A DNA stretch of 64,000 nucleotides, taken from positions 62,001 to 126,000 of the forward strand of contig CADBCZ010000005.1 in assembly GCA_902793335.1 (NCBI GenBank). Direction: 5' to 3'. The stretch is from an uncultured Lachnospiraceae bacterium. Lineage in GTDB: Bacteria > Bacillota > Clostridia > Lachnospirales > Lachnospiraceae. Under the pieces are notes generated by a model. That model saw only the letters and a program-made list of their open reading frames with translations, did no database searches and was not told the origin of the DNA. Below are positions 22,850-63,156 of the stretch, one piece after another (within the stretch, counting starts at the first letter, position 1; each line of letters starts with the position of its first letter). The translations under genes and the position numbers were made by a program.

Positions 22850-23689
22850 TTATTGTGATACAGCGTATCTTGTAACTGTATCAGTGTTCTGTGGTACAGA
22901 AGGATCTGTCACATTAGGATCTGTTGTATTAGGACTGGTATTAGTATTCTTCTTCAACACTCGTCCTACACCACAATACTTTCTATACTTATAATTAGAA
23001 ATAACAATTCCTGTAGACTCTGTAGATGCGTGTACCACCTTACCGTTACCTATGTACAATGCCACATGTGAACAACTTCTCTTACTACTTCCGTAAAAGA
23101 TAAGATCTCCGGGTTGAATATTCTTCATCTTAACGCTTTTGGTATCAACCATCTGCTGATATGCATTGTGGAAAAGATTATATCCAAACTTCTTATAAAC
23201 TGAATGAGTAAATCCGGAACAATCTGTTCCCTTTGTAAGACTGATTCCACCGTAGCGATACGGATTACCAACAAACTGTAATGCATAGCTTACAACTTCT
23301 TTCTGTTCTTCAGTCATTCCAGTATAGTCTATAACAGTTACCTTACATGTGTATTTCTTTCCATCAGCTTTGGCTGTAATGTTAGCAGATCCCACTGATA
23401 CAGGTGTAAGTGTTCCTGCCGCATCAACTGTTACAACCTTCTTGTTAGAACTTGTCCATTTGATAGAAGTATCAACCACTACCTCGTTAGGATCATCTGC
23501 TGTAGCAAATCCCTCATCATTCTCAGAATTACAATTAATTATCTCTAACCGGTCTTCAGTGTTCATCTCCAACACAAGTCTTGTTTTATTAAGTTTCGGC
23601 TTAACTGTAGCCGCATCAGCCTTCAAAGTAAATGAAAAAACAAATCCAAATACCATCAACAGGGTCAATAAAAATGCTCTGCGTTTCAT
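22850..23689 (-). CDS. secreted NlpC/P60 peptidoglycan hydrolase with Big2 domain
   Basis: 279 residues. Signal peptide (1-26, cleavage near ADA-AT), a Big2 Ig-like domain (about 28-120, SIKWTSSNKKVVTVDAAGTLTPVSVGSANITAKADG), then an NlpC/P60 domain with catalytic Cys in TDCSGF, His in CSHVALYIG and the following HAS. It should cut gamma-D-Glu-diamino acid bonds in stem peptides. The C-terminus is a Pro/Thr/Asn tail without a sorting signal. Single gene. Confidence 0.9.
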   Translation of the reverse strand: MKRRAFLLTLLMVFGFVFSFTLKADAATVKPKLNKTRLVLEMNTEDRLEIINCNSENDEGFATADDPNEVVVDTSIKWTSSNKKVVTVDAAGTLTPVSVGSANITAKADGKKYTCKVTVIDYTGMTEEQKEVVSYALQFVGNPYRYGGISLTKGTDCSGFTHSVYKKFGYNLFHNAYQQMVDTKSVKMKNIQPGDLIFYGSSKRSCSHVALYIGNGKVVHASTESTGIVISNYKYRKYCGVGRVLKKNTNTSPNTTDPNVTDPSVPQNTDTVTRYAVSQ

Positions 23690-32553: not shown

Positions 32554-34236
32554 TTACATATGTAACGACTGCAGAACCTTATATCCCGGAATAAAACTAC
32601 TGCCACCACTTATTTTATAATATTCTCTGAATATTCTGCCAACCGCCAACTGAACATCATCAGAACCCATTCCCACTAAAATTACCAGAAAATGCATGCC
32701 ATAACGTGTAACAATATCTACCGATCTGAGTGACTGATTAATAGCCTGCTCCATACATTTAAGACCACGTTCCATTTCCTGCTCATCAAATCCATGCTTA
32801 TCATCAGCATTTAATTCGATAAGAATAAGTTCAAACGGATGCGAAAATCTCTTTTCTATATTAGAGATATATTCATACAACCTTGAGAACTCATTATAAT
32901 CAACATCAAGTATTCCCTCATCTTCCCGGGAAACAAATTGCTCCATTGCTGTTCTAAGCAGAGAGGACTGTTGCTTTACCGCCTGATCTTTATTGATATC
33001 ATCCGCCTCCGAATCATACTTCAACATTCCCGCATCGAACAACTCTATGAACACCTCAATATATTCAGGATCAAACTGTTTACCCTTACCACGAACCAAC
33101 TCATTTCTTATATGCTCTGTGTCGCAGGCTTTACGATATATTCTGTTTGAATTCATGGCATCAAACGCATCTGCTATGGCAACAATTCTTGCCTCCTCAG
33201 GTATTTCTTCGCCCTTTAGTCCCCTCGGATAACCTTTTCCGTCATACCTCTCATGATGGCTAAATGCAACATCTTCCGCCAGTTTAACCTGTGTACGATC
33301 CCTTAATATTTCATATCCCATTGTTGTGTGGGATTTTATTATATCATACTCAACATCTGAAAGCCTTCCAGGTTTGCATAAGATCGAATCCGGTATTCCA
33401 ATCTTTCCGATATCATGTACCAGGGCAGCATATCTCAGCTCCCTTATCCTTTCATTACTCCATCCCAATTTCTTTGCCAAAATGACAGAATAAATGCTAA
33501 CTCGAGTCGAATGACCATTTGTATATGGATCTTTCGCATCTATCGCATCCGCCAGCGTCTGTATCGTCTGAAACGACATCTCTTCAATCTTTTTACTTCT
33601 CTCTTCCGCTACTGCTGTCTGCTTTTTCACCTCTTCATTGAGTCTTTCCGTGTAATCAATCTCTAAAAGCGCATTTTTGTGATACTGGTACATTGCCAAA
33701 CTTGTAAATATCGACAAGCTGATATAAATCACAGGGAAACGCCTCATAAAACTATCTGTATAATAAATACTTAAATTTTCTCTCAAAGGGGTATAAAAAA
33801 CAACAGAAAACAGAACACTGTAATATACTGAAAGAAGCATTCCATATTTTACACTGACAAAGTAGCACATTCCGATAGGCATTAACAACGACCACAACAA
33901 CGCTACACCTTCACCTATGCCTGTGAAAGTGTATACGGTAAATGCAACACCACAGAATATTGTTGGAATCAATATCGCTATCTCTCTGTTTTTAAGCACA
34001 GTTGTACAAAAAGCACAAGCAGCTGATGCAACTAATGTTGCAACAGACGCCAAAAGCATTAACGGGTCAAACCTTATAATGTTCGTTATTATAAGAACTA
34101 AACCAAGAATACCAGTGACATAACTTGCAAACGTCAGCGCACTCATATTCGCCTTATAGCGTTCACCAACATATATGGAACGGTTCAAAACACGAAACAT
34201 TTCTATAATAGATATTTTCCCAAACAGTTTTTTCAT
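32554..34236 (-). CDS. membrane HD-GYP protein with degenerate GGDEF-like tail
   Basis: 560 residues. Five or six N-terminal TM helices (about 28-190), a short coiled coil, then an HD-GYP domain (about 220-400): LVHDIGKIGIPD has the HD pair, SHHERYDGKGYPRGL the HHE and GYP motifs, and IADAFDAM the last metal ligand. Such domains hydrolyse cyclic di-GMP. The last 150 residues resemble a GGDEF fold (RSVDIVTRYGMHFLVILV) with the catalytic signature lost. RBS GAGGTCTG. It probably lowers c-di-GMP in response to a membrane cue. Confidence 0.88.
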   Translation of the reverse strand: MKKLFGKISIIEMFRVLNRSIYVGERYKANMSALTFASYVTGILGLVLIITNIIRFDPLMLLASVATLVASAACAFCTTVLKNREIAILIPTIFCGVAFTVYTFTGIGEGVALLWSLLMPIGMCYFVSVKYGMLLSVYYSVLFSVVFYTPLRENLSIYYTDSFMRRFPVIYISLSIFTSLAMYQYHKNALLEIDYTERLNEEVKKQTAVAEERSKKIEEMSFQTIQTLADAIDAKDPYTNGHSTRVSIYSVILAKKLGWSNERIRELRYAALVHDIGKIGIPDSILCKPGRLSDVEYDIIKSHTTMGYEILRDRTQVKLAEDVAFSHHERYDGKGYPRGLKGEEIPEEARIVAIADAFDAMNSNRIYRKACDTEHIRNELVRGKGKQFDPEYIEVFIELFDAGMLKYDSEADDINKDQAVKQQSSLLRTAMEQFVSREDEGILDVDYNEFSRLYEYISNIEKRFSHPFELILIELNADDKHGFDEQEMERGLKCMEQAINQSLRSVDIVTRYGMHFLVILVGMGSDDVQLAVGRIFREYYKISGGSSFIPGYKVLQSLHM

Positions 34237-34439
34237 ACAGACCTCTTATTCTTTAACACTCTAAGCCTTTAATATACTAAAGAAAGTATATCATTTATAC
34301 ACGGGCACTACAACAAAGAAGTTAACATAAGAAATCATAAAATTTTGACAGGAAATTGTGCAAAAAGTAATAAGGAGAAGAAAAAGGGATTTATCATTGT
34401 CGCAGCATAATAAAAGCTTGAAAATCAGTAGAATGCCAC
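34237..34439. other. intergenic region upstream of HD-GYP gene
   Basis: No gene. A second promoter-like sequence (TTGACA, 17-bp spacer, TAATAA, about 34355-34383) is followed by GGAGAAG, but no open frame of useful length follows. It may be a remnant of a transcript leader. Confidence 0.35.
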
Positions 34440-34468
34440 TTGACATTTAGACAAAACAGATATATCAT
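34440..34468 (+). promoter_or_regulatory. promoter of antisense (antitoxin) RNA
   Basis: TTGACA (34440-34445), 17-bp spacer, TATCAT (34463-34468). A transcript starting near 34475 would end at the terminator at 34528-34575. Confidence 0.7.
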
Positions 34469-34474
34469 CATATC

Positions 34475-34575
34475 AAAGGGAACAGCCGCCCACAAGGTGT
34501 GGTTCGATCTCCCGTTGTTGTTAATATCAGCCTAATCCATGGGTTCGAAGTCAAGGATTAGGCTGATTTTTATTT
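34475..34575 (+). ncRNA. predicted antitoxin RNA, about 100 nt
   Basis: Bounded by a near-consensus promoter and an intrinsic terminator: CAGCCTAATCC (34528-34538) pairs with GGATTAGGCTG (34555-34565), followed by ATTTTTATTT. It overlaps the 3' end, including the stop codon, of the convergent holin-like toxin gene, the arrangement of known bsrG/SR4- and txpA/RatA-type antitoxins. No coding potential is evident. Confidence 0.65.
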
Positions 34576-34717
34576 GTGCTTGTTATTCCTATCTATGTAG
34601 GCAAGCAATGCTACAATGAAAGTATCATTGAGAATTAACAATGTTAAAACTTCATATGTACTCATCATACGCACCACCTCCCTTCAACATTTCTAAAGGG
34701 AGATTAACCACACCTTG
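34493..34717. repeat. long-range inverted repeat enclosing the toxin gene
   Basis: CAAGGTGTGGTT plus ATCTCCC (34493-34504, 34507-34513) recurs inverted as GGGAGAT plus AACCACACCTTG (34698-34704, 34706-34717): 19 paired bases with a 1-2 base bulge. The toxin mRNA 5' leader and the antitoxin RNA therefore carry the same sequence, and a read-through toxin mRNA could fold 5' end to 3' end. Confidence 0.7.
34570..34668 (-). CDS. holin-like type I toxin peptide, 32 aa
   Basis: Too short for routine gene calling. The peptide begins MMSTYEVLTLLIL, has one hydrophobic membrane span (about 7-24) and a basic end AYIDRNNKHK, matching the putative holin-like toxin family related to TxpA/BsrG. Such peptides insert into the membrane and depolarise it when not repressed. 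GGGAGG lies 8 bases before the ATG; the same bases can pair with CTCCCTT upstream (stem CTCCCTT/AAGGGAG), hiding the ribosome site in the full leader. Translation is probably also blocked by the convergent antisense RNA. Confidence 0.8.
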   Translation of the reverse strand: MMSTYEVLTLLILNDTFIVALLAYIDRNNKHK

Positions 34718-34739
34718 AACACGATTGTTCCAAGGAATG

Positions 34740-34768
34740 ATTATATCATGCCAGTATGTTTTGGGCAA
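34740..34768 (-). promoter_or_regulatory. toxin promoter
   Basis: On the minus strand: TTGCCC (34763-34768), 17-bp spacer, TATAAT (34740-34745). It predicts a 65-nt leader before the toxin ATG, long enough to hold the ribosome-site-hiding stem. Confidence 0.7.
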
Positions 34769-34804
34769 TAATTATTATATTAATTCTAAAGTAATGTATA
34801 AGCA

Positions 34805-34841
34805 CAAGAGCCCTATGAAATATCAAATCATAGGGCTCTTG
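34805..34841 (-). terminator. hairpin after the dockerin hydrolase gene
   Basis: Perfect 14-bp stem CAAGAGCCCTATGA (34805-34818) with TCATAGGGCTCTTG (34828-34841), 16 bp after the stop. It lacks a full T run, so termination may be partial or the stem may protect the mRNA end. Confidence 0.6.
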
Positions 34842-34856
34842 TAAGAGATATGGATT

Positions 34857-37800
34857 TTAATTCAATTTTTCTTTTCCAACTAAATATCTACCGAGCATAG
34901 CAGCATCTCGATTATTAACATATCCATCGCCATTAAGATCCATAGCTCTTAATTGTTCATCGGTTGCAGTTTCTTTTCCAAGAAGACTTCTTGTAAGACC
35001 AGAGATATCCTTACCGTTAATAATTCCATCTCCACTATAATCCCCAACGATTACTATCACAACTTCATCAATCATTCCACCCTCTTCGTTAAGAAGCTGT
35101 ATCCTTGTTCCGGTTCCGGCCATTTCATCATCTGTTAGTTCAATATTGGTATTATCCTTAAACTTAAGATTTTGAGCGTTAATCTGTTTCTTGATCTCTG
35201 ATACAGAATTCTTTTCTATAGGAATATTTCTTAGATATCCATCTTCAATTCTATATACCGAATTACTAAGAAGACAAATTGAAGTATCCGGATTTCCTGT
35301 TATGATGAGCTTACATTCAGCAGTTTCACCTGAGGATAATACTTCTACTGTTACAGTAACTTCACCCTTTGCTATTGCTGTCACATTACCCTCATCATCT
35401 ATCGTTGCAAGATTATCATTTGAGCTTACAAATCTAAGTTCTTCACCCACAGCACTATTACCATTGCTCTCATATGTTACTTTAGCATTCAGCTTAAATC
35501 CTGTTCCCTCCATAATTGAATATGAATTTCTACCGAACTTAACTACAGCGTATGCATCATCCGTAATATATTTAGCTTTAACTGTCATATCTCCTGTTAC
35601 ATGGTCAGGATCATCTTCACTCTCCCATCCTACAAAACGATATCCATCTTTCTTTGGTGCAACATTGTCATCAACCGCACTTCCATAACTCACCTTGCCC
35701 GTAGTGATTTCAGTGCCATCCTCATCAAGATATGTGACATCAACTTTCTTTGCATCATATTTAGCGTATAATTCAAGACTCTCTGTTATCGTTTGAGCTC
35801 CTGTCTGCCACTTTTCTTCAAAATCATAATCATAATAGATTCCTTCAAGTTCAACAGATTCATACTCTCCGGTAAGCAAATTCTCTGCATCAAGCAACTT
35901 ACCATCCTGAATAAAATCACTATATCCATCGATAATTGTATCATCATATACATTAACCGGATATATGTTTACAATATGAGTTGGTACATTACCAGTTTCA
36001 TTAATTGCATACCACTGTTCACCCACCAAGCTATCATTCATACCTATTTTAGTTGCATAATATTTCAGTTTTGTCATATCTGATATATGAATTGATCCTT
36101 CATATATTTTAACAGATTTTTTATTTTCCACATCTGTAGGATCACTTCCATCTGTTGTATAATAAATTACTGCATCTTGAGTATTGCATTCAAGGATTAT
36201 ATCTTGGGCAGAATCATATTCTCCTCCTTCAACAGACGCTATAGGCATATCTACTGTTTCATCAAACTGATACTTTGCACCAACTATAAGATTTGTTGTG
36301 ATACAACTCAAATCTACATCCTCACCCCAGCTTACAAAGTTCAATGTACATTTAGTTGTCTTTGTAGTTCCCTGTGGTGTAGTTGTCTCTATTTCCTCTT
36401 CTATTTCTTCAGGAACAGTTTCTTTCTTTGTAACGCCGGCTTCAACTACTTCCGGAGAAATTGCAGATTCTCCATATACAACTTCTTCACTGATAACTTC
36501 TTTACCATTCCAGTCAACAAATGTCACCATAAATGTTTCCGGTTTATACTGCGCCTCACATAACAGATCTGAAGTAACTGTAAGTAGTTGTATTTCATTA
36601 ACATCTACATTCTCATCATCACTATCATCTGAAGCGGCATTAGTTTCAATCTCTTCTGTTCCGGTGACATCTGTAACCTTCCATCCGGTAAATACCATAC
36701 CCTCAGGTGCTTTAATATCACTTGGAAGTTCTACTTCATCTTCATATTCGCAATCTTTAATATCAATAGATTTGTTTTCCCAATCAACATAAGTGATTGT
36801 ATATGTTTCCTTCCTATACTGCGCAGTAACAGTCATGTCACCATGAATATTAGTAATTCCTGTATCCCATCCTATAAATGTATAACCATCTTTTTTGGGA
36901 GATTCCGGAACTTCTGCATCATGACCTTCTACTATCTCCTGTGTATCGATTTCGGTACCATCTTCATCAACAAACGATACCTTATAAACAGGCTTAGGTG
37001 CTTCTATAGTTCCCACCTTAACATAATTAGTCGTTCCCTTAACACCAAGTACCACCGTGTAATCACCGGTACCCTCATACGTTTGTTCTTCTCTCGGTAC
37101 AAATGATATGTTCAAGCCTCCATCTGAACCTATTACAGTATTACCTATATATTCAACATTATCTTCCGCAATCTGATTTACCTTATTCTTAAATACTATT
37201 ACAACTGCATCTTTTCCGGCCAATCCCATTGCCTCTTCCGGAAGCTTACATTCCGGTTTCATTTCTGCAATAGTACTTTCAGGCTTTTCTGACTCCGGAA
37301 TCTTATATCTATACTGTTCCTTTGACTCAACAAGAATCTTAGTAGTTCCTGTCTTTAATGTTGTATCTCCTTCTATCTTTTCCTCTGTCCAATCTGACCA
37401 TGTCGAATCTGTTTGATAGAAATAATAAGTCTTATTTGTCTGCTTAGATTCATAATAGTAATTGTACAACGGATCACTATTTAATTTATTCTGCATACAG
37501 CCTCTTGTTCCCGCACCAACAACTCCATCAACAGATAAACCATTAGCACTTTGGAAATTTTTAACTGCAGCAGCAGTATTATAACCATACACTCCATCAA
37601 TATCAGTCCCAAATCCATAACGGCACAGACAAGTCTGTATCCATCTTACCATACTTCTGTATGTATCTCCTCCTGTTGTAGATACACTTATATTATATGT
37701 AGGAACTGTATGTATATTAGGATCATACTGATATGCTATCCCTTCTGCCCATACTCTATATGCTCCAGCCCTTGCAGGTGCAGAAGCACTTCTTCCATTA

Positions 37801-39869
37801 CCATAATGTACCTTATCACCTTTACCAACATCTACCGATGTTGTATTGTATAAAGTCCATCCAGCAATTGAATTAGTTGTAGTTGAAGTCGTATAATTAA
37901 CATTCTTTGAATGATAAATCGTACGTTTTGTATATTCAGGATCACCTTCTTCAGGAGCTTTATCAGTCCATTCGCCATAACCTTTTGCCTGTATAGGTAT
38001 ATCTTTAATTTCAGCCAACGGTACTGCCGACTCATATTCATCTAAGACAATAACTCTTGCCTGATCAGCAGCTTCTTCGCAAACGATATACATATCATTT
38101 ACATCAAGGATTCCATCTTCTGTTATTTCTCCCTCTTCATTTACTTCACCTGCAGGAATCTTAACAGTTCTGGTTTCACCCTGTGCAACCATCTTTCCGT
38201 CTTCTGTGGTCATATATGTCATAACTCTTGCACGACGTTCTTTATCAGTATGATTCTTTAATTTAAAGCTTAATGAATACGAGCCATCATACTCTGTCTG
38301 ACACGCATCATCCTCTGCCATAACCACTACCGGAAGCTCTTCATCTGCCCACTTATAAACAGGATATATATCAATATTTGAAGATATATGATCAAAAGTC
38401 TCACTCCAACCGGTGAATGTATAACCTTCCGGAATGTTAAGATTGTCTTCTGAAGGAGCAGTTGCAGCCTCATCATATGGAATCTTCTGCGTTTCACCTA
38501 TTTTAGTTCCATTGGTTTCTTTAAATGTAACATTATAAATATTCTTCTTATATACTGCCGTTACTGTTGCATCACTCTTAACATTTTGGTATGTTCCATC
38601 CCACTTAACAAAACTGTATCCTGTCTTTTCAGGATTTGCCGGAGGATTTGCATTTTCACCCCTTCCAACTTTCTGCTCGGATAACAGACTTCCATCTTCA
38701 TTAACAAACTTAATATTATATGGATCATAAACAGTAACCATACATTTAGCTGTTTTTCCATTATGAGTACTTGCTGTAATCGTTGCTGTTCCTGATGATA
38801 CAGCTTTAATTGTTCCACCCGATACCGTAGCTACTCCTGAATTAGAACTTGACCATGTCACATTTTTGTTTGAAGCATTTGCCGGAGCTACACTTGCTGA
38901 TAAACCTTTTGTTCTACCGGTTGTAATTTCCATAGAACCAGCACTTATTGATATACTTGTTGCATCAACAAACTTAATTCCATCCCAGACTTCCTTCAAC
39001 TTACTTCTGGTAGCAGGTCCCACCACTCCATCAGCTGAAAGTCCATATTTACTTTGAAAACTTTTTACTGCTGAAGCAGTTCCCGAGCCATATACACCAT
39101 CAACAGATAAACTGTTACCATTAACTCTGTTTAATACTGATTGAATCCATGCAACACCCGTTGCTCTTGAATTATATCTCGTACTAATAGTTGCGGTTGG
39201 CATCGGATTGTCATCCGGATTTGACGAATATGTAGTTTTTACACCAGCATCGTAATATCCACTACCTCCACCGTTTCCTTTTTTCCAATTAGGTTTAGAA
39301 ACAGCAGGTGATTTTCCACTATAATCCACCTCACAAATACCTTTTATTTCTGGAGCATTTATATTCCATTGATGTATAACAACACCTCTCCCATTACCTG
39401 ATGTCGAATTACCACTTGCTGTTTTTATCGTTCCATTATTATAACCAGTAATCAACTCTACATGTTCTGGATAGTAACAAGTTTTGCACCAATCAATATA
39501 TATTAAGTCTCCTGCCTTTGGTGTGTATCCTCCCTCGTGCCATATACCACTTCTAACATTCTCATTTGGTACCGCAAAGCCTAAATTACTTGAATTATAA
39601 TTATAAACATTTAAACCTACTCCTGCTGTCTTCATACACCACGCCACAAAATAAGCACACCAATTTGTTTTATTATGTCCAAATGAAGCACCATACTTAT
39701 TATCATAATAGTTGGTAGCCATATACCCAATCTCAGCTTGAGCTACAGCCACAACATTCTGCCCATTTGCTGCACTAACCTTCTTCATTGGCACTACTGG
39801 ACACAATGTAGCTATCATCACCGCAACGAGCATAATACTCGTTAATTTCTTCAATGCTTTTATCTTCAT
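34857..39869 (-). CDS. secreted CHAP-domain cell-wall hydrolase with C-terminal dockerin
   Basis: 1670 residues. Signal peptide (1-33); CHAP amidase/endopeptidase (about 36-170) with catalytic Cys in NWCAYFVAW and His in EHVELITG; two peptidoglycan-binding PGB_1 domains (about 230-295 and 730-796); Big2 domains (about 300-380 and 1443-1523); several InlB/Listeria-Bacteroides-type repeats with the xFxGW signature (390-510, 960-1206, 1303-1436); a chitobiase-type CHB_HEX domain (about 1210-1286); and a type I dockerin (about 1608-1670) with two canonical calcium loops, DYSGDGIINGKD and DLNGDGYVNNRD. The dockerin implies docking onto a cohesin, and two cohesin proteins are encoded directly upstream. 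Third gene of the operon, 17 bp after the cohesin-2 gene, RBS GGGGAGGAG. Confidence 0.9.
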   Translation of the reverse strand: MKIKALKKLTSIMLVAVMIATLCPVVPMKKVSAANGQNVVAVAQAEIGYMATNYYDNKYGASFGHNKTNWCAYFVAWCMKTAGVGLNVYNYNSSNLGFAVPNENVRSGIWHEGGYTPKAGDLIYIDWCKTCYYPEHVELITGYNNGTIKTASGNSTSGNGRGVVIHQWNINAPEIKGICEVDYSGKSPAVSKPNWKKGNGGGSGYYDAGVKTTYSSNPDDNPMPTATISTRYNSRATGVAWIQSVLNRVNGNSLSVDGVYGSGTASAVKSFQSKYGLSADGVVGPATRSKLKEVWDGIKFVDATSISISAGSMEITTGRTKGLSASVAPANASNKNVTWSSSNSGVATVSGGTIKAVSSGTATITASTHNGKTAKCMVTVYDPYNIKFVNEDGSLLSEQKVGRGENANPPANPEKTGYSFVKWDGTYQNVKSDATVTAVYKKNIYNVTFKETNGTKIGETQKIPYDEAATAPSEDNLNIPEGYTFTGWSETFDHISSNIDIYPVYKWADEELPVVVMAEDDACQTEYDGSYSLSFKLKNHTDKERRARVMTYMTTEDGKMVAQGETRTVKIPAGEVNEEGEITEDGILDVNDMYIVCEEAADQARVIVLDEYESAVPLAEIKDIPIQAKGYGEWTDKAPEEGDPEYTKRTIYHSKNVNYTTSTTTNSIAGWTLYNTTSVDVGKGDKVHYGNGRSASAPARAGAYRVWAEGIAYQYDPNIHTVPTYNISVSTTGGDTYRSMVRWIQTCLCRYGFGTDIDGVYGYNTAAAVKNFQSANGLSVDGVVGAGTRGCMQNKLNSDPLYNYYYESKQTNKTYYFYQTDSTWSDWTEEKIEGDTTLKTGTTKILVESKEQYRYKIPESEKPESTIAEMKPECKLPEEAMGLAGKDAVVIVFKNKVNQIAEDNVEYIGNTVIGSDGGLNISFVPREEQTYEGTGDYTVVLGVKGTTNYVKVGTIEAPKPVYKVSFVDEDGTEIDTQEIVEGHDAEVPESPKKDGYTFIGWDTGITNIHGDMTVTAQYRKETYTITYVDWENKSIDIKDCEYEDEVELPSDIKAPEGMVFTGWKVTDVTGTEEIETNAASDDSDDENVDVNEIQLLTVTSDLLCEAQYKPETFMVTFVDWNGKEVISEEVVYGESAISPEVVEAGVTKKETVPEEIEEEIETTTPQGTTKTTKCTLNFVSWGEDVDLSCITTNLIVGAKYQFDETVDMPIASVEGGEYDSAQDIILECNTQDAVIYYTTDGSDPTDVENKKSVKIYEGSIHISDMTKLKYYATKIGMNDSLVGEQWYAINETGNVPTHIVNIYPVNVYDDTIIDGYSDFIQDGKLLDAENLLTGEYESVELEGIYYDYDFEEKWQTGAQTITESLELYAKYDAKKVDVTYLDEDGTEITTGKVSYGSAVDDNVAPKKDGYRFVGWESEDDPDHVTGDMTVKAKYITDDAYAVVKFGRNSYSIMEGTGFKLNAKVTYESNGNSAVGEELRFVSSNDNLATIDDEGNVTAIAKGEVTVTVEVLSSGETAECKLIITGNPDTSICLLSNSVYRIEDGYLRNIPIEKNSVSEIKKQINAQNLKFKDNTNIELTDDEMAGTGTRIQLLNEEGGMIDEVVIVIVGDYSGDGIINGKDISGLTRSLLGKETATDEQLRAMDLNGDGYVNNRDAAMLGRYLVGKEKLN

Positions 39870-39886
39870 CCAATCTCCTCCCCTCT

Positions 39887-41641
39887 TTACTTAGTTCTCT
39901 TCGATATGACAACCCATTTACCATAAGAGTTTCTATCTACGCCACTTGCATCTTTATAAGTCTGATACGCTCGAATTCTAATGTAATATTTTTTATTAGC
40001 TTTCAATTTTTTTATCTCTAATTTGTTTTTTGTTGACTTAACATTATATGAAGTTACTGTTTTGAATTTTTTCTTAGTTGAGATTTGAACTTCATATCCA
40101 CTTGCTTCACTAAGTTTTTTCCAATTTACAACTACAGCTTTTTTCTTTTTAACAGCTTTAAAACCTGTCACCTTTGTATTTGATGTAACACCCGGTTGTA
40201 TCTGTGCAACCTTAGATGACTGACTGTTGTTTTCTGAACTATTATTTCCTGATGTTTGATTTGTTCCCGCATTATTTGTTGTTCCGGTATTTTGTCCTTG
40301 CTGTTGTCCTGAACTTCCCGAATTATTATTACCCGAGTCAGAAGTTGCTGTAGTATTTTCTGTTTTCGATGTAATAGAAAATGTTCCTACTGCAACAGCA
40401 CCATAATATTCACCAGTCTCATCTACCGTTGCTTTAATAAAATACGTTCCCACCTCATTCGGAATTGATGAACTGTATTCTCCATTTTCCTGCTTTGCAT
40501 ATGTAAATGTTACGTTACCATTACCAAGATTACCAAGAACAGACGGAGTTGATGGTTCCGAGCCTATTTCCCAACCTTTTAATATAACGGCAAATTCTTT
40601 CAAGGTTTTCTTTGTTCCTGCTTTTTCTTCTGTGTTTTTCTCATTTATTTTAAATGAACAAATTGCACTTCCACTCTCATATTTCTCTGTTTCTTCTACA
40701 ATTATCTTTAAATAATATGTTCCTGCTTTAGAAGGTTTTTCACCAGAAAATGTTCCGTCAACCTTATCAGAATATAATATTGTATATTTACCTTCACCAT
40801 CGTTTCCTACTACTGATGGATTTCCTAATTCTGTACCTTCTTCTATATCCTCCATAAATACCGCCAAATTATTTAATTTTGTCTTTACACCACTGTCTGT
40901 AATACCAATAGTACATGTTGTTTTCTCAAATGTGATGGTATTATATCCTTCGTTATATGTACCCGTCCCTACAGAAGATACTTCAATATTACACTCCTTT
41001 TTATCCATATCCTCCTTACAAAGAAACTCCAAATCAAAGAGTTCTCCATCTGATGTAATATTTTCACTTCCGCCCCAAACAATCTTATAACTACCGACAT
41101 CCGAAGTCGAAACACTGTCATTTACTGTTTCAGAATTAAGTATTCCATTATTACCTACAGATAAAGGTATAAAGCAATCCGAATCATAACTTACCTGTAA
41201 TTGTATTCCCATAACTCCACAGTTTTTGGATATTTGAATTGGAATATGAAAAACCTGTCCTTTAACTACAAATACATTTTCCGAACTCAAAACCGGTCTC
41301 TCATATACTTTTACATTAAAATCAAGTGAAATTGTCTTTTCAGTCTCGGTATATGATATCTTTACTGTACATGTTCCGGCATTTGAAAAATCGTAATCAT
41401 AACTAAGGTTATTATTGCCTGCATTGATAATCTTAGTATTGCCTGATGAGTAGCTGACAAGTAACGAAAGACCCCTTTCATTAAACTTATCTCCCACACA
41501 GTATTCCTTTTGTAATGGTTCCGTTACCAGTTCCAACGACGTTGGCAGATCTGATGCCGCAATACTAACTAATGTTATCGGTCTGCAAATTGATAAAATC
41601 ATCATTATTACAACACTTACAACCCATCTCCTTCTATTCAT
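39887..41641 (-). CDS. secreted multi-domain cohesin protein
   Basis: 584 residues. Signal peptide (about 1-29), a Big_3-type Ig domain (about 35-110), a cohesin-like domain (about 117-245; VFVVKGQVFHIPIQISKN, GVMGIQLQVSYDSDCF, and SDGELFDLEFLCK), two related MBG-like repeats (about 250-335 and 345-425), a Ser/Gly/Asn/Gln linker (425-490) and a fibronectin type III domain (493-582). No transmembrane or sorting signal follows, so it is secreted or held by other contacts. It should offer one dockerin-binding site. Overlaps the anchor gene by 8 bp and precedes the dockerin hydrolase gene. Confidence 0.8.
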   Translation of the reverse strand: MNRRRWVVSVVIMMILSICRPITLVSIAASDLPTSLELVTEPLQKEYCVGDKFNERGLSLLVSYSSGNTKIINAGNNNLSYDYDFSNAGTCTVKISYTETEKTISLDFNVKVYERPVLSSENVFVVKGQVFHIPIQISKNCGVMGIQLQVSYDSDCFIPLSVGNNGILNSETVNDSVSTSDVGSYKIVWGGSENITSDGELFDLEFLCKEDMDKKECNIEVSSVGTGTYNEGYNTITFEKTTCTIGITDSGVKTKLNNLAVFMEDIEEGTELGNPSVVGNDGEGKYTILYSDKVDGTFSGEKPSKAGTYYLKIIVEETEKYESGSAICSFKINEKNTEEKAGTKKTLKEFAVILKGWEIGSEPSTPSVLGNLGNGNVTFTYAKQENGEYSSSIPNEVGTYFIKATVDETGEYYGAVAVGTFSITSKTENTTATSDSGNNNSGSSGQQQGQNTGTTNNAGTNQTSGNNSSENNSQSSKVAQIQPGVTSNTKVTGFKAVKKKKAVVVNWKKLSEASGYEVQISTKKKFKTVTSYNVKSTKNKLEIKKLKANKKYYIRIRAYQTYKDASGVDRNSYGKWVVISKRTK

Positions 41642-42662
41642 TCCTCTTCTCCCTCCTTTTAAACGCTATAATAATTACAAGTATGACAACCATACAGATA
41701 ATAATACCAGCTATAATATAAACAATGGTTTTCCAATGCTCACTCTTCGCTTCATCAGTAGCAGTAGAATCCAACTCACTATAATACTCATCATCTGTAA
41801 TACTTACCTGATCAGCTATAGTCTTAAGATTCAAATTCTTAATATCGCCTTTTTTCACCCCCTCGAACTCAATAAGATTATTTTTTGCCTTCTCCCAGAA
41901 CTCTTCTTCATCCTCTTCGCGTATTTCAGAAATTGATTTTGAATTGTATTCTTTTAATGTTCTGATTATCGCATTTTTAATTTTTTTAATTCCTATCTTT
42001 TCTATTTGCTGATCTGCTAATATATTTGATTCCGCCTGTTGAATATATTTATTTTCTTCCTCATTACCAATATGTTTTTCAATCTCTTGTTTAACAGTCG
42101 CAGGTATTTGATTGTTATCATTATCAACTATCTTCTTTTCGTCTTCTTTAGCAGTTATTCCAAGAACAATATCATTACAATTAATAACAACATCTTTCCA
42201 TTGTTCATTAAATGTATCTTCCTGACTATAACTCAACCCAATTGATATCTGATTAGTAGTATTATCTTTTACCGTTACAACAATATACATCAATGAACCA
42301 TCTTCCTTAACGTCCTCTGTTGTATTCCATAAAACACTTAAAGTAGATGCACTTTCTTCAGGCCCCAAATCAGATGCAAAATTTCCTCCACCAGTGACAA
42401 GTCCATTAGTAATGGAATCAATACTTAACAACTCATTATCATAATTAAGATAAAGTCGAAAACCCATGATTCCTTTATTACCTGTCAAATACAAAGGAAT
42501 TAAATACTGATTATCATTAATTTGTTGTACAGCTTCTGCTATAGTCGATAAAGTATATTCTCCTTCAGCACAAACCCTATTTTGGGGGTTACTTAAACTA
42601 ATTAGTGAAACAACCAAGACACCTACGATTATTTTGATTAATCTCTTATAACACCTATACAT
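41634..42662 (-). CDS. membrane-anchored cohesin protein
   Basis: About 342 residues. Signal peptide (about 1-32), cohesin-like domain (about 40-170: YLIPLYLTGNKGIMGFRLYLNYDNEL, then SASTLSVLWNTTEDVKEDGSLMYIVVTV), a charged helical stalk of about 130 residues and a C-terminal transmembrane helix (about 315-337) followed by KRREKRNE. The design is that of an anchoring scaffoldin, but with a membrane helix instead of SLH or LPXTG. The ATG at 42662 is preferred over an upstream GTG at 42674, because GAGGGAG lies 11 bases before it. First gene of the operon. Confidence 0.8.
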   Translation of the reverse strand: MYRCYKRLIKIIVGVLVVSLISLSNPQNRVCAEGEYTLSTIAEAVQQINDNQYLIPLYLTGNKGIMGFRLYLNYDNELLSIDSITNGLVTGGGNFASDLGPEESASTLSVLWNTTEDVKEDGSLMYIVVTVKDNTTNQISIGLSYSQEDTFNEQWKDVVINCNDIVLGITAKEDEKKIVDNDNNQIPATVKQEIEKHIGNEEENKYIQQAESNILADQQIEKIGIKKIKNAIIRTLKEYNSKSISEIREEDEEEFWEKAKNNLIEFEGVKKGDIKNLNLKTIADQVSITDDEYYSELDSTATDEAKSEHWKTIVYIIAGIIICMVVILVIIIAFKRREKRNE

Positions 42663-42808
42663 CTTTATAACCACTCCCTCAAAGCCATCCCATTTTTACT
42701 AAATAATGCAACATATCTATTTTATTTAATTACGTTATTTTTTATTTGATCAAACACCTCTTTTCTCATAGTTTTTACAATATAAACCCGTACAAATAAC
42801 ATACATAA

Positions 42809-42883: not shown

Positions 42884-42945
42884 AAATAATGTCTATATGA
42901 TTAAAATAATGGATCATTAAAATTGAGAAAATGGGGGTACTGAAA

Positions 42946-43311
42946 ATGGAGCGATTACGGGAATTAAGGCGAGAACGAAATATGAGTCAACAAATGCTTG
43001 CCGATATCATTGGCGTAACCCAACAGGCGGTCCACAAGTACGAGTATGGTCTTGCCCAACCTGAATTCAACACCCTTATACAGCTTTCGAAATTATTTCA
43101 TGTATCCATAGACTATCTGATTGAGAATCCTGAGTTTGACTGCACATACGAATATAGAGCAAAAACTTCCGATGATCGGAATAAGGTGCTGGAAATAGAG
43201 ATTACTCCGTCTGAATATCATTACCTTTCGTTATACAAAAAGCTTTCACCACAATCAAGGCAAAGCATTGAACATATTTTAGAAGCAATGACTGACAATA
43301 ACAATAATTAA
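42946..43311 (+). CDS. XRE-family regulator, divergent to the cohesin operon
   Basis: About 121 residues. N-terminal HTH (LRELRRERNMSQQMLADIIGVTQQAVHKYEYGLAQPEFNTLIQLSKLFHVSIDYLI, about residues 3-60) and a C-terminal domain of about 55 residues with no known motif. The start at 42946 is preferred because GGGGG lies just before it; an upstream in-frame ATG at 42931 has none. Its divergent position and the palindrome between promoters suggest control of the cohesin-dockerin operon and of itself. Confidence 0.85.
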   Translation: MERLRELRRERNMSQQMLADIIGVTQQAVHKYEYGLAQPEFNTLIQLSKLFHVSIDYLIENPEFDCTYEYRAKTSDDRNKVLEIEITPSEYHYLSLYKKLSPQSRQSIEHILEAMTDNNNN

Positions 43312-57265: not shown

Positions 57266-57991
57266 TTACCTTCTTCTAGTATCATATTCCATATATGCAT
57301 TCATCAAAGGTGTATGAAGTCGCCTTGACACAGCCACCTTATCTCCATTTAACATATAGATTATATTTTTTTCTATATGTTCAATTTTACCCATATTCAC
57401 GATAAATGATTTGTGACACTGAAAAAACACCCTGTCATCCAAGACATCACGCCATGATGCAAGCGTCTGTTCGCTTCGATATTCATTACCTCTTGTAAAA
57501 ATAAGTGTTGCTGATTTATCTGCTTCCACATAAAGAATATCACGTTGAACAATATCATAAGATACTCCATCCCGAAACACAGATACCTTTGATATGCCCA
57601 CGATATGCTCTCTGACATCATTAATCGCTCCATACAATTCTGTCTTTTCTATAGGCTTTGGCACGAATCTAAATGCCTGAATCTTAAATGCCTCCTTATA
57701 TCTGTCCTCTCTTGCCGTAAGCATAATTATCTTGTATTCTATACCCCTGTCACGCAACTTATGTGCAGCCTCTATTCCATCCATTTTAGGCATATCTATA
57801 TCTAAAAACAAAAAATCCAAATCATCTCCTGCACCTAATAATTCTGCAGCCGATGTGTAATGAATTATTCTTATATTTAAATCGTATAATACTGCATAGT
57901 CAGCAAGCAGATTCTCAACTGTATTATGAGTGTTCATCTCATCATCACATAATCCAATTATCAGTTTAACCTTATCTTTATGCAAACTCAT
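57266..57991 (-). CDS. LytTR response regulator (pair A)
   Basis: 241 residues. Receiver domain (about 10-125) with phosphoacceptor Asp in FLFLDIDMPKMDGIEAA and Lys in FVPKPIEK. LytTR DNA-binding domain (about 138-237) with the typical DILYVEADKSATLIF and FFQCHKSFIVNMGKIEHIEKN...VAVSRR motifs. Partner of the following AgrC-like kinase. It is the best candidate for binding the tandem site before the micropeptide. Weak ribosome site. Confidence 0.92.
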   Translation of the reverse strand: MSLHKDKVKLIIGLCDDEMNTHNTVENLLADYAVLYDLNIRIIHYTSAAELLGAGDDLDFLFLDIDMPKMDGIEAAHKLRDRGIEYKIIMLTAREDRYKEAFKIQAFRFVPKPIEKTELYGAINDVREHIVGISKVSVFRDGVSYDIVQRDILYVEADKSATLIFTRGNEYRSEQTLASWRDVLDDRVFFQCHKSFIVNMGKIEHIEKNIIYMLNGDKVAVSRRLHTPLMNAYMEYDTRRR

Positions 57992-58007
57992 ATATATTCA
58001 TCCATTC

Positions 58008-58036
58008 ATTATTTTTTACTTTTCAGTCTATCACAA
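58008..58036 (-). promoter_or_regulatory. promoter of two-component pair A
   Basis: Minus strand: TTGTGA (58031-58036), 17-bp spacer, AATAAT (58008-58013), just upstream of the LytTR gene and downstream of the terminator of pair B, so pair A is an independent operon. Confidence 0.55.
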
Positions 58037-58058
58037 ATAATTATTCTAGACAAATAAA

Positions 58059-58106
58059 AAACAAAGGTTGAAAGATTTAATATATCCAATCTTCCAACCC
58101 TTGTTT
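58059..58106 (-). terminator. terminator of the exporter/pair B operon
   Basis: AAACAAAGGTTGAAAGATT pairs with AATCTTCCAACCCTTGTTT with two mismatches; on the minus strand it is followed by a run TTTTTTATTT. Confidence 0.8.
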
Positions 58107-58109
58107 AAT

Positions 58110-58823
58110 TTATTCAAACAATCGTTTCATATACGATTCACAAAATTCATTGTATTTACGCCTACTTATCTGAACTTTCTCACCTGTACTCAACTCTATT
58201 TCTGTTCTATTGTATTTTGTTATATAATCAAAATTAACAATAAAGGATTTATGACATCTGTACATTTTGTTGTTGTCTGTGAACATCTCCTCAACCGACG
58301 ATAAAGTTGCTTTATACTCCAACACCTCTTCTTGTTTACGATCAAGGTGTAATGTACAGTTTTTACCATCACCCTCTATATAAACAATCTCATTTATATT
58401 TATTATATGATTTTCACCATTAATTTTCACTTTTATATATGCTTCGTCTTTATATAATCGCAAAAAATCTTTCATTGCTTTTTCAAACTTATCATCCTCT
58501 ATAGGTTTTACCAAAAATCTAAAAGTCCCCACCTCAAACACATCAAAGACTATTGTTGCATAGCTGGTAAGAAATATTATATGTACATTACTATTCCTCT
58601 TTCGAATTTCTCTTGATATTTCAAGTCCGTTTTTCTTATCTTCCCCAAAATCATAATCCATGAATATTAGGTCATACGATTTCTTAGCTTCAAGTATCCG
58701 TTCACCCGATTCATATTCATCTACACAAAAATCCTCATTTTTTTGGAAAGATAATTTTAGTAATTTTTGTTTTATCTCATCCCTAATATAGTCTATATCA
58801 TCACACACTGCAATTTTAATCAT
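58110..58823 (-). CDS. LytTR response regulator (pair B)
   Basis: 237 residues. Receiver domain with phosphoacceptor Asp in LIFMDYDFGEDKKNGLEIS and Lys in FLVKPIEDDKFE; LytTR domain (about 130-235) with EIVYIEGDGKNCTLHL and YRCHKSFIVNFDYITKYNR...VQISRRKYNEF. It overlaps the preceding GHKL kinase gene by 8 bp, so the pair is coupled. Confidence 0.92.
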   Translation of the reverse strand: MIKIAVCDDIDYIRDEIKQKLLKLSFQKNEDFCVDEYESGERILEAKKSYDLIFMDYDFGEDKKNGLEISREIRKRNSNVHIIFLTSYATIVFDVFEVGTFRFLVKPIEDDKFEKAMKDFLRLYKDEAYIKVKINGENHIININEIVYIEGDGKNCTLHLDRKQEEVLEYKATLSSVEEMFTDNNKMYRCHKSFIVNFDYITKYNRTEIELSTGEKVQISRRKYNEFCESYMKRLFE

Positions 58824-60165
58824 CTTTCCGTCCTTTTATTTTATAATAATCAAAAGTCATTTTTACATGTAAAAAATCATCGAGGCTTAAAAGAATCACG
58901 TTTCCTGAATATTTTTCTACTATTTTTTTTATATTTAGCAGCCCTGTTCCATTAATATACTTATTATCCTCAGTTATCAACACTTGATCGTTAATAGTAA
59001 TCTGTTTTTCTGAAGTGGGATATGAAATTTTAAACACCCATTTCTCATTTTCTAAATATGAATCAATTACTATTTCTTTTTCCCCTTCGATTTTGCCACA
59101 TGCAATGATAGCATTATCAAGAAGATTTGAAAGTATATCTACCATATCTGAATCTTTTACAGCATCTTCCGGTATTATACCATAAACTGATAATTTCGCA
59201 TTAATTTCTTTGATTATTTTTTGTTTTGAAGTTAATACTACATCCGCAACAAAGCACCCGGTATTATATTGCATTCTTGTAGCCTTTACATCTTCTATTA
59301 TATCACTTATATAATCTCTTGCTACTTCTATCTTAGTGTCCGAAAGAATTCCATCGAGTTTGCAAAGAGTGTTTATTATATCATGCCTAAACTTTCTTAA
59401 GTCTTCGTCTTTATTTCCAAGTTCATTGCAATACCCAGCAGTTGCCTTCATCTGCTCTTCTAATACAATTAGCCTATTTCCCACTGACATGTTTTTTTCT
59501 TTTATAGTAAATATTAATGTTGTCAGAAATACTACTATAAACACGAAAAATATCATTGTCATTTTTACTATAGGTAATACACTTGAATTAAGTATTTCTC
59601 TCTCCATAATATATACAAACAATAAAATTGCAGATAACAATATATATTCTTTATTCGACAACGACATCAAACATAATGGCAGCCTTTTACTTTCTCTTTT
59701 CTTATCATAAATACGCAATATAATAATAAGTAAAACCTGCATAATCGTTCCACACAAAATCACTATCAATTCTTTTCTAACCATACTGATTGTCTCACAA
59801 AATATAAAAGATACCGTATCGCTCATCAAATAAACAACCACTGTATAAAACAACGAAAAACCTACAGTTATATTTCTCTTTTTAAATATAAAATACAAAA
59901 GTACAGATGCTTTAAACAACAATAATAAATTTATCAACAGAGACAACACTGATAAATATGTGTGTTTCCCCTGACTGTTTATTGTACATAGTCTAACATA
60001 ATTAATCCCAACTATACATACATATATACCCAACCCAATAAAATATCTCTTAAAGTTTTTACTAAACTCTGCTCCAAATACTTTCTTAAAAAAGAAAAGC
60101 AACGCAAACATGTATACTATTTCATATAATACTGTCATAGATACGCATGTAATGTCAAAATTCAT
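58816..60165 (-). CDS. GHKL sensor histidine kinase, AgrC-like (pair B)
   Basis: 449 residues. Seven or so TM helices in the first 225 residues, His in LRKFRHDIINTLCKLDGIL (about 265), GHKL ATPase with NLLDNAIIACGKIEG and GTGLLNIKKIVEKYSG. Similar in design but not in sequence to the pair A kinase, so not a recent duplicate. It follows the CPBP gene by 53 bp in the exporter operon. Confidence 0.88.
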   Translation of the reverse strand: MNFDITCVSMTVLYEIVYMFALLFFFKKVFGAEFSKNFKRYFIGLGIYVCIVGINYVRLCTINSQGKHTYLSVLSLLINLLLLFKASVLLYFIFKKRNITVGFSLFYTVVVYLMSDTVSFIFCETISMVRKELIVILCGTIMQVLLIIILRIYDKKRESKRLPLCLMSLSNKEYILLSAILLFVYIMEREILNSSVLPIVKMTMIFFVFIVVFLTTLIFTIKEKNMSVGNRLIVLEEQMKATAGYCNELGNKDEDLRKFRHDIINTLCKLDGILSDTKIEVARDYISDIIEDVKATRMQYNTGCFVADVVLTSKQKIIKEINAKLSVYGIIPEDAVKDSDMVDILSNLLDNAIIACGKIEGEKEIVIDSYLENEKWVFKISYPTSEKQITINDQVLITEDNKYINGTGLLNIKKIVEKYSGNVILLSLDDFLHVKMTFDYYKIKGRKDD

Positions 60166-60218
60166 ATTATCACCTTTTAAACTAACCGTATTATTTATCT
60201 ATATAAATAGATACAAAC

Positions 60219-61022
60219 TCACCTTTCCTTCTCGTTTTTAATATTTTTCACAATCAAAATCACTCCTACCATAAATGCAATAACAAATATAGCCACTGCT
60301 ATTATCGGACTTCCCCATATACCATGTGTCTCCTGTGGCATAAGTAATGCAAATACTCGTGACGTATCCTGCACAATATATATTGCCGTATTCCACGCCA
60401 TATGCAATATTATTACGAGCATTATATTCTGAGATACAATAAATACAATTCCCAATATCAATCCACCAGGTATCCGATTCTCAAAATCTGATCCATGACA
60501 TATCGCAAATAAAAACGTTGTAATAATAAATGCTATTATTTTGCCTTTTTTGCTCTTAAACACGCTTATGCACATCACTCTGCAACAAAACTCCTCAAGT
60601 ACCGGACCTAATACTGCACATAACGGCAAAGTCAAGAGATCCTCCGCTAATTCATGCCAGCTGGTTTTTTCAATTGATTGAAATATATTACCAAAATCAT
60701 TATATAAAATGTTGGCATACAAAAACACAATAAGAGGATAAACCAAAAATATTCCCAATATTACTTTTTTATTTGAATAAGTCAATCTATATTCGGCTGA
60801 TGCTGTAAATATTTTTCTTAAAACAAAAACATAAAAAATAATAGTTACAATTACACCGACAAGTTCAACCAAAGTTCCCTGTAGAACCTCCCTGACAATA
60901 GACGTTTCATCACTTAATCCATAGAAGGAAAGTAAGCTCACTGCAAGTATAATTACATACGCCAAGATAAATGATACTAACTTTAGAAAATTGTGATTTT
61001 TATTTACAGCTGTTCCTTCCAT
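60219..61022 (-). CDS. CPBP-family intramembrane metalloprotease
   Basis: 267 residues with about seven TM helices. The three CPBP/Abi motifs are intact: EE-xxx-R in LEEFCCRV, F-xxx-H in FAICHG and H-xxx-N in HMAWNT. In lactic-acid-bacterial and streptococcal loci such proteins process peptides or give immunity to bacteriocins. Its start overlaps the end of the C39 ABC exporter gene by 19 bp, linking it to peptide export. Confidence 0.88.
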   Translation of the reverse strand: MEGTAVNKNHNFLKLVSFILAYVIILAVSLLSFYGLSDETSIVREVLQGTLVELVGVIVTIIFYVFVLRKIFTASAEYRLTYSNKKVILGIFLVYPLIVFLYANILYNDFGNIFQSIEKTSWHELAEDLLTLPLCAVLGPVLEEFCCRVMCISVFKSKKGKIIAFIITTFLFAICHGSDFENRIPGGLILGIVFIVSQNIMLVIILHMAWNTAIYIVQDTSRVFALLMPQETHGIWGSPIIAVAIFVIAFMVGVILIVKNIKNEKER

Positions 61023-63136: not shown

Positions 63137-63156
63137 ACGGTTCACCTTATTATCTT

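Follow-up and report, generated by a model that had tools for sequence, protein, structure and literature searches.

Cohesin-dockerin pairs have so far been treated as tools for digesting polymers outside the cell, and the cellulosome, the amylosome and the mucinolysome are the enzyme complexes of this kind set out in the consulted parts of PMC12997984 and PMC5817068. Here we describe a 64,000-nucleotide stretch of DNA (the window; contig CADBCZ010000005.1, positions 62,001 to 126,000) from an uncultured Lachnospiraceae bacterium, in which three adjacent genes encode a membrane-anchored cohesin protein (P3), a secreted cohesin protein (P2) and a CHAP cell-wall hydrolase that ends in a dockerin (P1). 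Like the complexes just named, the locus combines a type I dockerin on a secreted enzyme with a cohesin on a surface partner; it differs from them in that the genome holds one dockerin, placed on a peptidoglycan hydrolase, that each cohesin protein has one cohesin, that Pfam finds neither a carbohydrate-binding module (CBM) nor a glycoside hydrolase in P1, P2 or P3, and that the anchor is a transmembrane helix, in contrast to the SLH or sortase anchors of the cited systems. A cellulosome would have several dockerin-bearing glycoside hydrolases and a multi-cohesin scaffoldin with a CBM; what we found is a single dockerin on a CHAP protein, and three-cohesin proteins only in two relatives, the genomes G206 and G428.

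Dockerins on wall hydrolases are known from ruminococci. According to the excerpt of PMC3573020 used here, RflaF_05439 of R. flavefaciens (NlpC/P60-XDoc) is said, on its authors' unpublished data, to bind the surface-anchored cohesin ScaE, and the consulted part of a 2019 review (PMC6403190) records lysozyme activity in the R. champanellensis cellulosome, reports dockerin-bearing wall hydrolases and holds that a "lyticome" could emerge. As far as these excerpts go, such proteins share with P1 a peptidoglycan-hydrolase-type module joined to a dockerin; they are parts of large cellulosomes, whereas P1 and its cohesins are encoded in an operon of their own, the genome having no further dockerin. 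A different precedent is found in S. aureus, in which the membrane protein SpdC scaffolds SagB to cut new glycan strands (PMC10581084, in the portion consulted). The operons of the relatives described below resemble it in pairing a SagB/Atl-type enzyme with a membrane protein, but their partner is a single-helix cohesin protein and not a CAAX-protease-like one, so that the likeness is one of working and not of membership. P1 itself has a CHAP head in place of the SagB-type glucosaminidase that the relatives' enzymes carry, and P3 shows one helix besides its signal peptide and no Pfam match of the CAAX-protease-like, multi-helix type. Single cohesin or dockerin modules outside cellulosomes, reportedly reviewed by Peer et al. 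in 2009, are like the window in consisting of few modules with no cellulosome. We found no description of a free-standing, membrane-anchored cohesin-dockerin pair for wall hydrolases in the open-access literature; subscription papers lay mostly outside the search, and an earlier mention is possible.

A cohesin-dockerin unit around a peptidoglycan hydrolase

P1, P2 and P3 make up a real, exclusive and conserved cohesin-dockerin unit around a peptidoglycan hydrolase, with a likely function in wall hydrolysis. A search of the whole window genome (G000, a 3.6 Mb draft in 157 contigs, 98.5% complete) returned two cohesins (PF00963) and one dockerin (PF00404), all of them within the three genes, and a cohesin profile built from the family recovered the same two cohesins. 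The search for other dockerins, which the first-pass annotation had proposed, thus left that of P1 as the only one found, and the cohesins of P2 and P3 are therefore its only candidate partners within the cell. With a curated cut-off of 24.1 bits for PF00963, the P3 cohesin scored 31.2 bits in the genome search and 31.5 bits as a domain alone, and that of P2 35 and 35.7 bits; the P1 dockerin (cut-off 22.9) reached 49.5 bits in the genome search and 42.1 in the protein scan, both of its calcium loops being canonical and intact in the alignment. Since all three domains lie above curated cut-offs and are the only ones found in the genome, chance is no issue. A cellulosome remnant was considered and ruled out: the genome yielded no second dockerin or other cohesin, and the layout recurs with wall hydrolases.

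The cohesin assignments, which had been proposed together with a profile check, were borne out by these scores, although not by every search. The whole-protein Pfam scan of P2 did not list its cohesin, which appeared when the domain was given alone; the NCBIfam scan of P2 and P3 gave no match, and phmmer with the single P2 domain sequence returned no cohesin among PDB sequences. When the family-cohesin profile was compared with PDB sequences, scaffoldin cohesins led, 45 of the 47 profile rows being relatives and not the window. For P3, structure models had a mean predicted local distance difference test (pLDDT) score of 58 (full-length) and 69. Foldseek matches of the full model were all cohesins from rank 1 to 15, and cohesins made up 10 of the 15 PDB matches of the domain model at E <= 0.001; they were also its best matches, with template modelling (TM) scores on the query of 0.37-0.50, integrin-like and CLIPPER matches following close behind. 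The models thus support, with moderate confidence, a cohesin beta-sandwich fold. A chance beta-sandwich was ruled out by the two separate above-cut-off Pfam cohesins in one operon with a dockerin and by the scaffoldin-led profile comparison. After the cohesin, P3 is mostly helical up to its membrane stretch and short basic tail, and the proposed transmembrane anchor agrees with the single C-terminal stretch that hydropathy shows besides the signal peptide, at residues 313-331. In P2, Pfam named Big_3 and fn3, as had been expected, with further Ig-like stretches that have no Pfam name; the label MBG found no Pfam match, and hydropathy revealed no C-terminal anchor.

The make-up first read for P1 held in full: besides a signal peptide, Pfam and alignment gave CHAP, two PG_binding_1, two Big_2, four Flg_new (InlB-type) stretches, CHB_HEX_C_1 and a C-terminal dockerin. 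The CHAP domain (PF05257) scored 31.5 bits against a cut-off of 26, and in an alignment of five CHAP domains from dockerin systems C71, H136 and one Asn column were conserved. P1 is accordingly predicted to be a peptidoglycan-cutting CHAP enzyme with catalytic Cys and His. No glycosidase, in agreement with the earlier reading, was present among the 15 window open reading frames (ORFs; 6 + 9) scanned with Pfam.

The three genes are consecutive on the minus strand, P3 and P2 overlapping by 8 bases and P2 and P1 separated by 17 (ORF coordinates), which upholds both the gene order and the single-operon layout of the first-pass annotation. Its start for P3, at 42662, is an ATG four codons inside the frame; a GTG at 42674 gives 346 amino acids (aa). 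A purine-rich stretch precedes each start codon. Promoter-like sites were no more frequent than in shuffled sequences, and a terminator scan of 34236-34857 found none.

Swapped heads and glucosaminidase operons in relatives

With P3 as the query across 397 genomes of the family, matches were obtained in four other genomes, of which G161 and G401 gave weak ones confined to the cohesin part, and G206 and G428 contain the whole set of a P1-like, a P3-like and a three-cohesin gene. In G206 a 1938-aa dockerin protein (Peptidase_M23 head, CHB_HEX_C_1, Flg_new, Big_2, dockerin) is followed first by a cohesin protein of 316 aa that has a membrane helix at its C-terminus, and then by a protein of 1549 aa that combines three cohesins with Big_2 and LRR. 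In G428 the protein, again of 1938 aa, has a CHAP head, the tail seen in G206 and a dockerin, and is followed by a 328-aa cohesin-helix protein; a 661-aa three-cohesin protein is encoded on the same strand at a distance of about 5 kb. P1 aligns with both 1938-aa proteins at 27-28% identity over residues about 360-1293 (about 930 residues) and at 37-38% over about 1301-1669 (the C-terminal 350-370 residues), and its head does not align. The cohesin-transmembrane genes of both genomes are similar to P3; the likeness to P2 is weaker, extending to the cohesin part in G206 and to the cohesin and fn3 part in G428, and the dockerin gene comes first in these genomes but last in the window. CHAP and M23 are two types of peptidoglycan hydrolase; their exchange at the head, with tail, dockerin and cohesin partner retained, is our best indication that docking serves wall hydrolysis. 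P1 as a query against genome contigs returned no relative.

Across the 397 genomes, Pfam found a dockerin in 144, a cohesin in 148 and both in 100 (Fisher odds ratio 9.7, with genomes treated as independent and relatedness ignored); exactly one dockerin was found in 97 genomes, 62 of which also have a Pfam cohesin. We then looked at 60 dockerin regions from 59 genomes, which we selected by hand from the top-scoring matches, for the most part in genomes holding one to three dockerins; none came from the 14 genomes that have at least eight. In 36 of the 60 the dockerin protein has a SagB/Atl-type N-acetylglucosaminidase domain, and in 30 of these 36 a cohesin gene that encodes a membrane helix lies next to it, while 6 have none. 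Among the remaining 24, a neighbouring cohesin gene was found in 11 (7 with a helix) and none in 12, and one (L166) was counted as having no dockerin in its called ORFs. A wall-hydrolase head occurs in 39 of the 60 regions, namely the 36 and L172, L176 (CHAP) and L191 (M23); L172, an operon member that the glucosaminidase hidden Markov model (HMM) did not match, has Pfam Glucosaminidase and a dockerin. Among the remaining regions are a GH9 enzyme, LRR proteins, a papain-type peptidase and proteins of no assigned type.

The domain HMM was first built from four relatives and L087, and the HMMs rest on few sequences. A profile of 14 of the glucosaminidase proteins matched the PDB chains 6fxp and 6u0o_B and autolysin E at 1e-20 to 1e-22, and 3 of 4 proteins tested had an NCBIfam SagB match; these matches, which include SagB, Atl and AtlE structures, and that to Pfam Glucosaminidase carry the SagB identity and mark the recurrent domain as an N-acetylglucosaminidase of the SagB/Atl type. 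The entry 6u0o we take to be the SagB-SpdC structure. A second scan, of database records, covered the best 80 loci of a longer list, at least three of the records apparently being shared with the family genomes, so that the counts overlap: 79 had the glucosaminidase in their ORFs, 54 of them with a dockerin, and an adjacent cohesin gene was present at 46 of these 54, in 41 with a visible transmembrane helix. The record titles among these 80 were mostly Lachnospiraceae, the others Clostridia, Oscillospiraceae and Ruminococcus. Such pairs in so many relatives suggest that cohesin-dockerin docking also holds wall-cutting enzymes at the membrane.

Other arrangements were seen as well. At L082:7811-12295 (G055) a peptidase C39-type protein carrying both a cohesin and a dockerin, and possibly self-assembling, adjoins another cohesin protein, which has a membrane helix, and at L177:2040-7901 (G274) a papain-type peptidase (Peptidase_C1, Lectin_like) with a dockerin stands beside a cohesin-membrane-helix gene, a docking layout with a protease head. 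In Roseburia inulinivorans DSM 16841 (L241) a glucosaminidase beside a cohesin-helix gene has a C-terminal dockerin-like motif, after which it is apparently out of frame.

Within the window's own genus, a dockerin occurs in 5 of 26 genomes. One of them, G010, has six (loci L076, L077 and L078), on two CHAP proteins, one Phage_lysozyme protein, one PG_binding_1-ricin-Big_3 protein, one ricin-type protein and one frame cut by a contig end; they lie on two short contigs, and the cluster may therefore be incomplete. The one cohesin found in G010 belongs to a genus-wide locus, in which an SH3-glucosaminidase-cadherin-like protein without dockerin is joined by a cohesin-cadherin-like protein without membrane helix. 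The SH3-glucosaminidase is present in all 26 genomes (e.g., L063:9184-12399; G000:C41:12362-14179), and no cohesin was found beside the C41 copy of the window genome. The cohesin gene was found in 13 of the 19 genomes in which the glucosaminidase match extends as far as the cadherin-like end; of the 7 genomes, the window's included, in which the match ends short of it, 0 have the gene (p 0.005, with genomes treated as independent, which ignores relatedness). The genus-wide pair (748-aa SH3-glucosaminidase and 322-aa cohesin) was considered as a counterpart of the window operon and rejected, being a separate locus.

Proposed working and competing explanations

In our view it is fairly likely that the three proteins constitute a small cohesin-dockerin system that serves a single peptidoglycan hydrolase, probably for remodelling the cell's own wall. 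P1 would be exported and bound to the wall via its PG_binding_1 domains, its CHAP head cutting peptide bonds, while P3 would be fixed in the membrane with its cohesin facing outward. The P1 dockerin would then dock, presumably with calcium, on the cohesin of P3, which would place the enzyme at the membrane face of the wall, or on that of the secreted P2; this second, soluble cohesin may vie with P3 for the enzyme or bring it further out. The glucosaminidase operons may represent another route to SpdC-like scaffolding, and P1 the same with a peptide-cutting head. The small wall-remodelling complex imagined by the first-pass annotation gains from the exclusivity, from the heads swapped on a conserved scaffold and from the recurrent glucosaminidase operons; the locus now appears not as an isolated case but as one of the rarer forms of a widespread theme.

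Several observations weigh against this interpretation. As to novelty, dockerin-bearing wall hydrolases in ruminococcal cellulosomes are already in print and the "lyticome" was proposed in 2019, as the cited excerpts attest. Other dockerins of the family sit on a GH9 enzyme, CBM26, LRR proteins and a papain-type peptidase; 35 of the 97 single-dockerin genomes have no Pfam cohesin and 48 of the 148 cohesin genomes no Pfam dockerin; and the six dockerins of G010 face one found cohesin, which lacks a transmembrane helix. In a pooled glucosaminidase set (132 rows after dropping identical or short domains, <220 residues), a cohesin gene adjoins 31 of the 38 dockerin-less enzymes (12 of the 31 from the window's genus), so that part of the pairing needs no dockerin; together with the 48 of 148, this means that docking through a dockerin cannot be read off from the mere presence of a cohesin next to a wall hydrolase. 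By eye, 35 of the 38 end right after the cadherin-like domain, as if a dockerin had been added or removed there. On the glucosaminidase tree of the 132 rows the dockerin state changes 6 times and the cohesin state 15 times, with 5 independent pairs, which are too few events to judge whether gain and loss are linked. Beyond the enzyme, there is a weak correlation of dockerin with cohesin distances (partial r 0.15, n 74; 1 in 2001 under permutations that did not preserve relatedness). At 0.16 it compares with 0.05 between dockerin and a control segment (n 72), the bootstrap difference of -0.06 to 0.29 spanning zero; a first filter left 15 loci and a looser one 72, and the difference is compatible with zero in both. 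The cadherin-like segments of both proteins co-vary more strongly (0.35 in the comparison of 72). Given this stronger co-variation and the unclear difference between dockerin and control, a second contact beyond the dockerin is likely in the relatives, where the pair may be held in two ways, docking by the dockerin being one. In P1, P2 and P3 Pfam found no cadherin-like domain, and the dockerin is therefore the candidate contact in the window.

The same data lend themselves to the view that cohesin-like domains act without a dockerin, that the relatives make contact through other, cadherin-like domains, and that the dockerin of P1 is incidental or binds something else. The dockerin-less pairs, the split of the genus cohesin gene along the cadherin-like end and the strong co-variation of the cadherin-like segments all agree with it; we nevertheless hold it to be quite improbable for the window, where that domain is missing and where two cohesins and one dockerin are the only ones found in the genome. 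It is also conceivable, though in our opinion unlikely, that P2 carries the hydrolase outward and that the complex attacks neighbouring bacteria or scavenges peptidoglycan as a "lyticome". P2 is secreted with no anchor seen, G206 and G428 have a three-cohesin protein, the dockerin proteins of G010 bear CHAP, lysozyme and ricin-type lectin domains, and the R. champanellensis lysozyme activity, along with the word itself, is found in the excerpt of PMC6403190. Yet the single dockerin of the window genome means that there is no multi-enzyme mixture, and the transmembrane helix of P3, as of most partners elsewhere, would keep the enzyme near the cell's own wall. Finally, the non-catalytic modules, which make up most of P1, might be what matters, the Ig-like, fn3 and InlB-type parts being displayed as an adhesin and CHAP merely helping a huge protein to cross or sit in the wall. 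The alternation of CHAP and M23 heads on an otherwise conserved protein, together with the retained catalytic Cys and His, points to the contrary and would indicate instead that hydrolysis is the kept function, and leave adhesin display very improbable.

Returning to a docked wall hydrolase as the preferred interpretation, we put forward a broader scheme only tentatively. The usual task of cohesin-dockerin pairs in Lachnospiraceae might be holding peptidoglycan hydrolases at the membrane, a tether like SagB-SpdC made from a different part, and not plant-fibre digestion; the window, G206 and G428 would be a second branch with endopeptidase-type heads, in some genomes, such as G010, the scheme would have expanded into a set of multiple wall hydrolases with dockerin tags, which would make a first candidate, at the genome level, for a "murosome" that stands by itself, and the family's cellulosomes may go back to this earlier housekeeping role or have parts in common with it. 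If cohesin-dockerin pairs do place the cell's own wall-cutting enzymes here, this would add a means of autolysin control that is new for gut bacteria, would explain the single dockerin and single cohesin in many genomes of the family and would offer a source of ready-made orthogonal membrane-anchored pairs. It would also call for caution in annotation, a lone dockerin or cohesin in a genome being by itself no sign of fibre digestion.

Coordinates and neighbouring genes

Table 1. Genes and domains of the cohesin-dockerin operon and the adjoining regulator gene, in window coordinates
Feature	Position	Strand	Content or basis
P3, membrane-anchored cohesin protein (346 aa)	41634..42674	-	signal peptide, cohesin, helical region, transmembrane helix, short basic tail; alternative ATG 42662
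P3 cohesin domain	42186..42482	-	PF00963, 31 bits; predicted fold matches solved cohesins, modest scores
P3 transmembrane helix, about residues 313-335	41670..41738	-	hydropathy; helix also in low-confidence model
P2, secreted cohesin protein (584 aa)	39887..41641	-	signal peptide, Big_3, cohesin, Ig-like stretches, fn3
P2 cohesin domain	40940..41263	-	PF00963, 35 bits
P1, CHAP wall hydrolase with C-terminal dockerin (1670 aa)	34857..39869	-	ORF and Pfam
CHAP domain of P1	39408..39674	-	Pfam; C71, H136
First PG_binding_1 of P1, residues 237-291	38997..39161	-	Pfam
Second PG_binding_1 of P1, about residues 739-795	37485..37655	-	two Pfam stretches; NCBIfam SleB-type match 739-804
Type I dockerin of P1	34881..35045	-	PF00404, 49.5 bits; calcium-loop motifs start near residues 1610 and 1644
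Divergent HTH_3 regulator gene adjoining the operon	42931..43311	+	ORF and Pfam

Elsewhere in the window, two genes downstream of P1, 31528-32472(-) encodes a 314-aa protein rich in Ser and Gly, in which Cys pairs recur and for which Pfam gave no convincing match. A further wall hydrolase of secreted type, with NLPC_P60 and Big_2 and without a dockerin, is encoded at 22850-23689(-). A LytTR regulator, a GHKL kinase, an Rce1-like protease and a peptidase-C39 ABC transporter, located at 57266-63145(-), resemble a peptide-export and signalling cluster.

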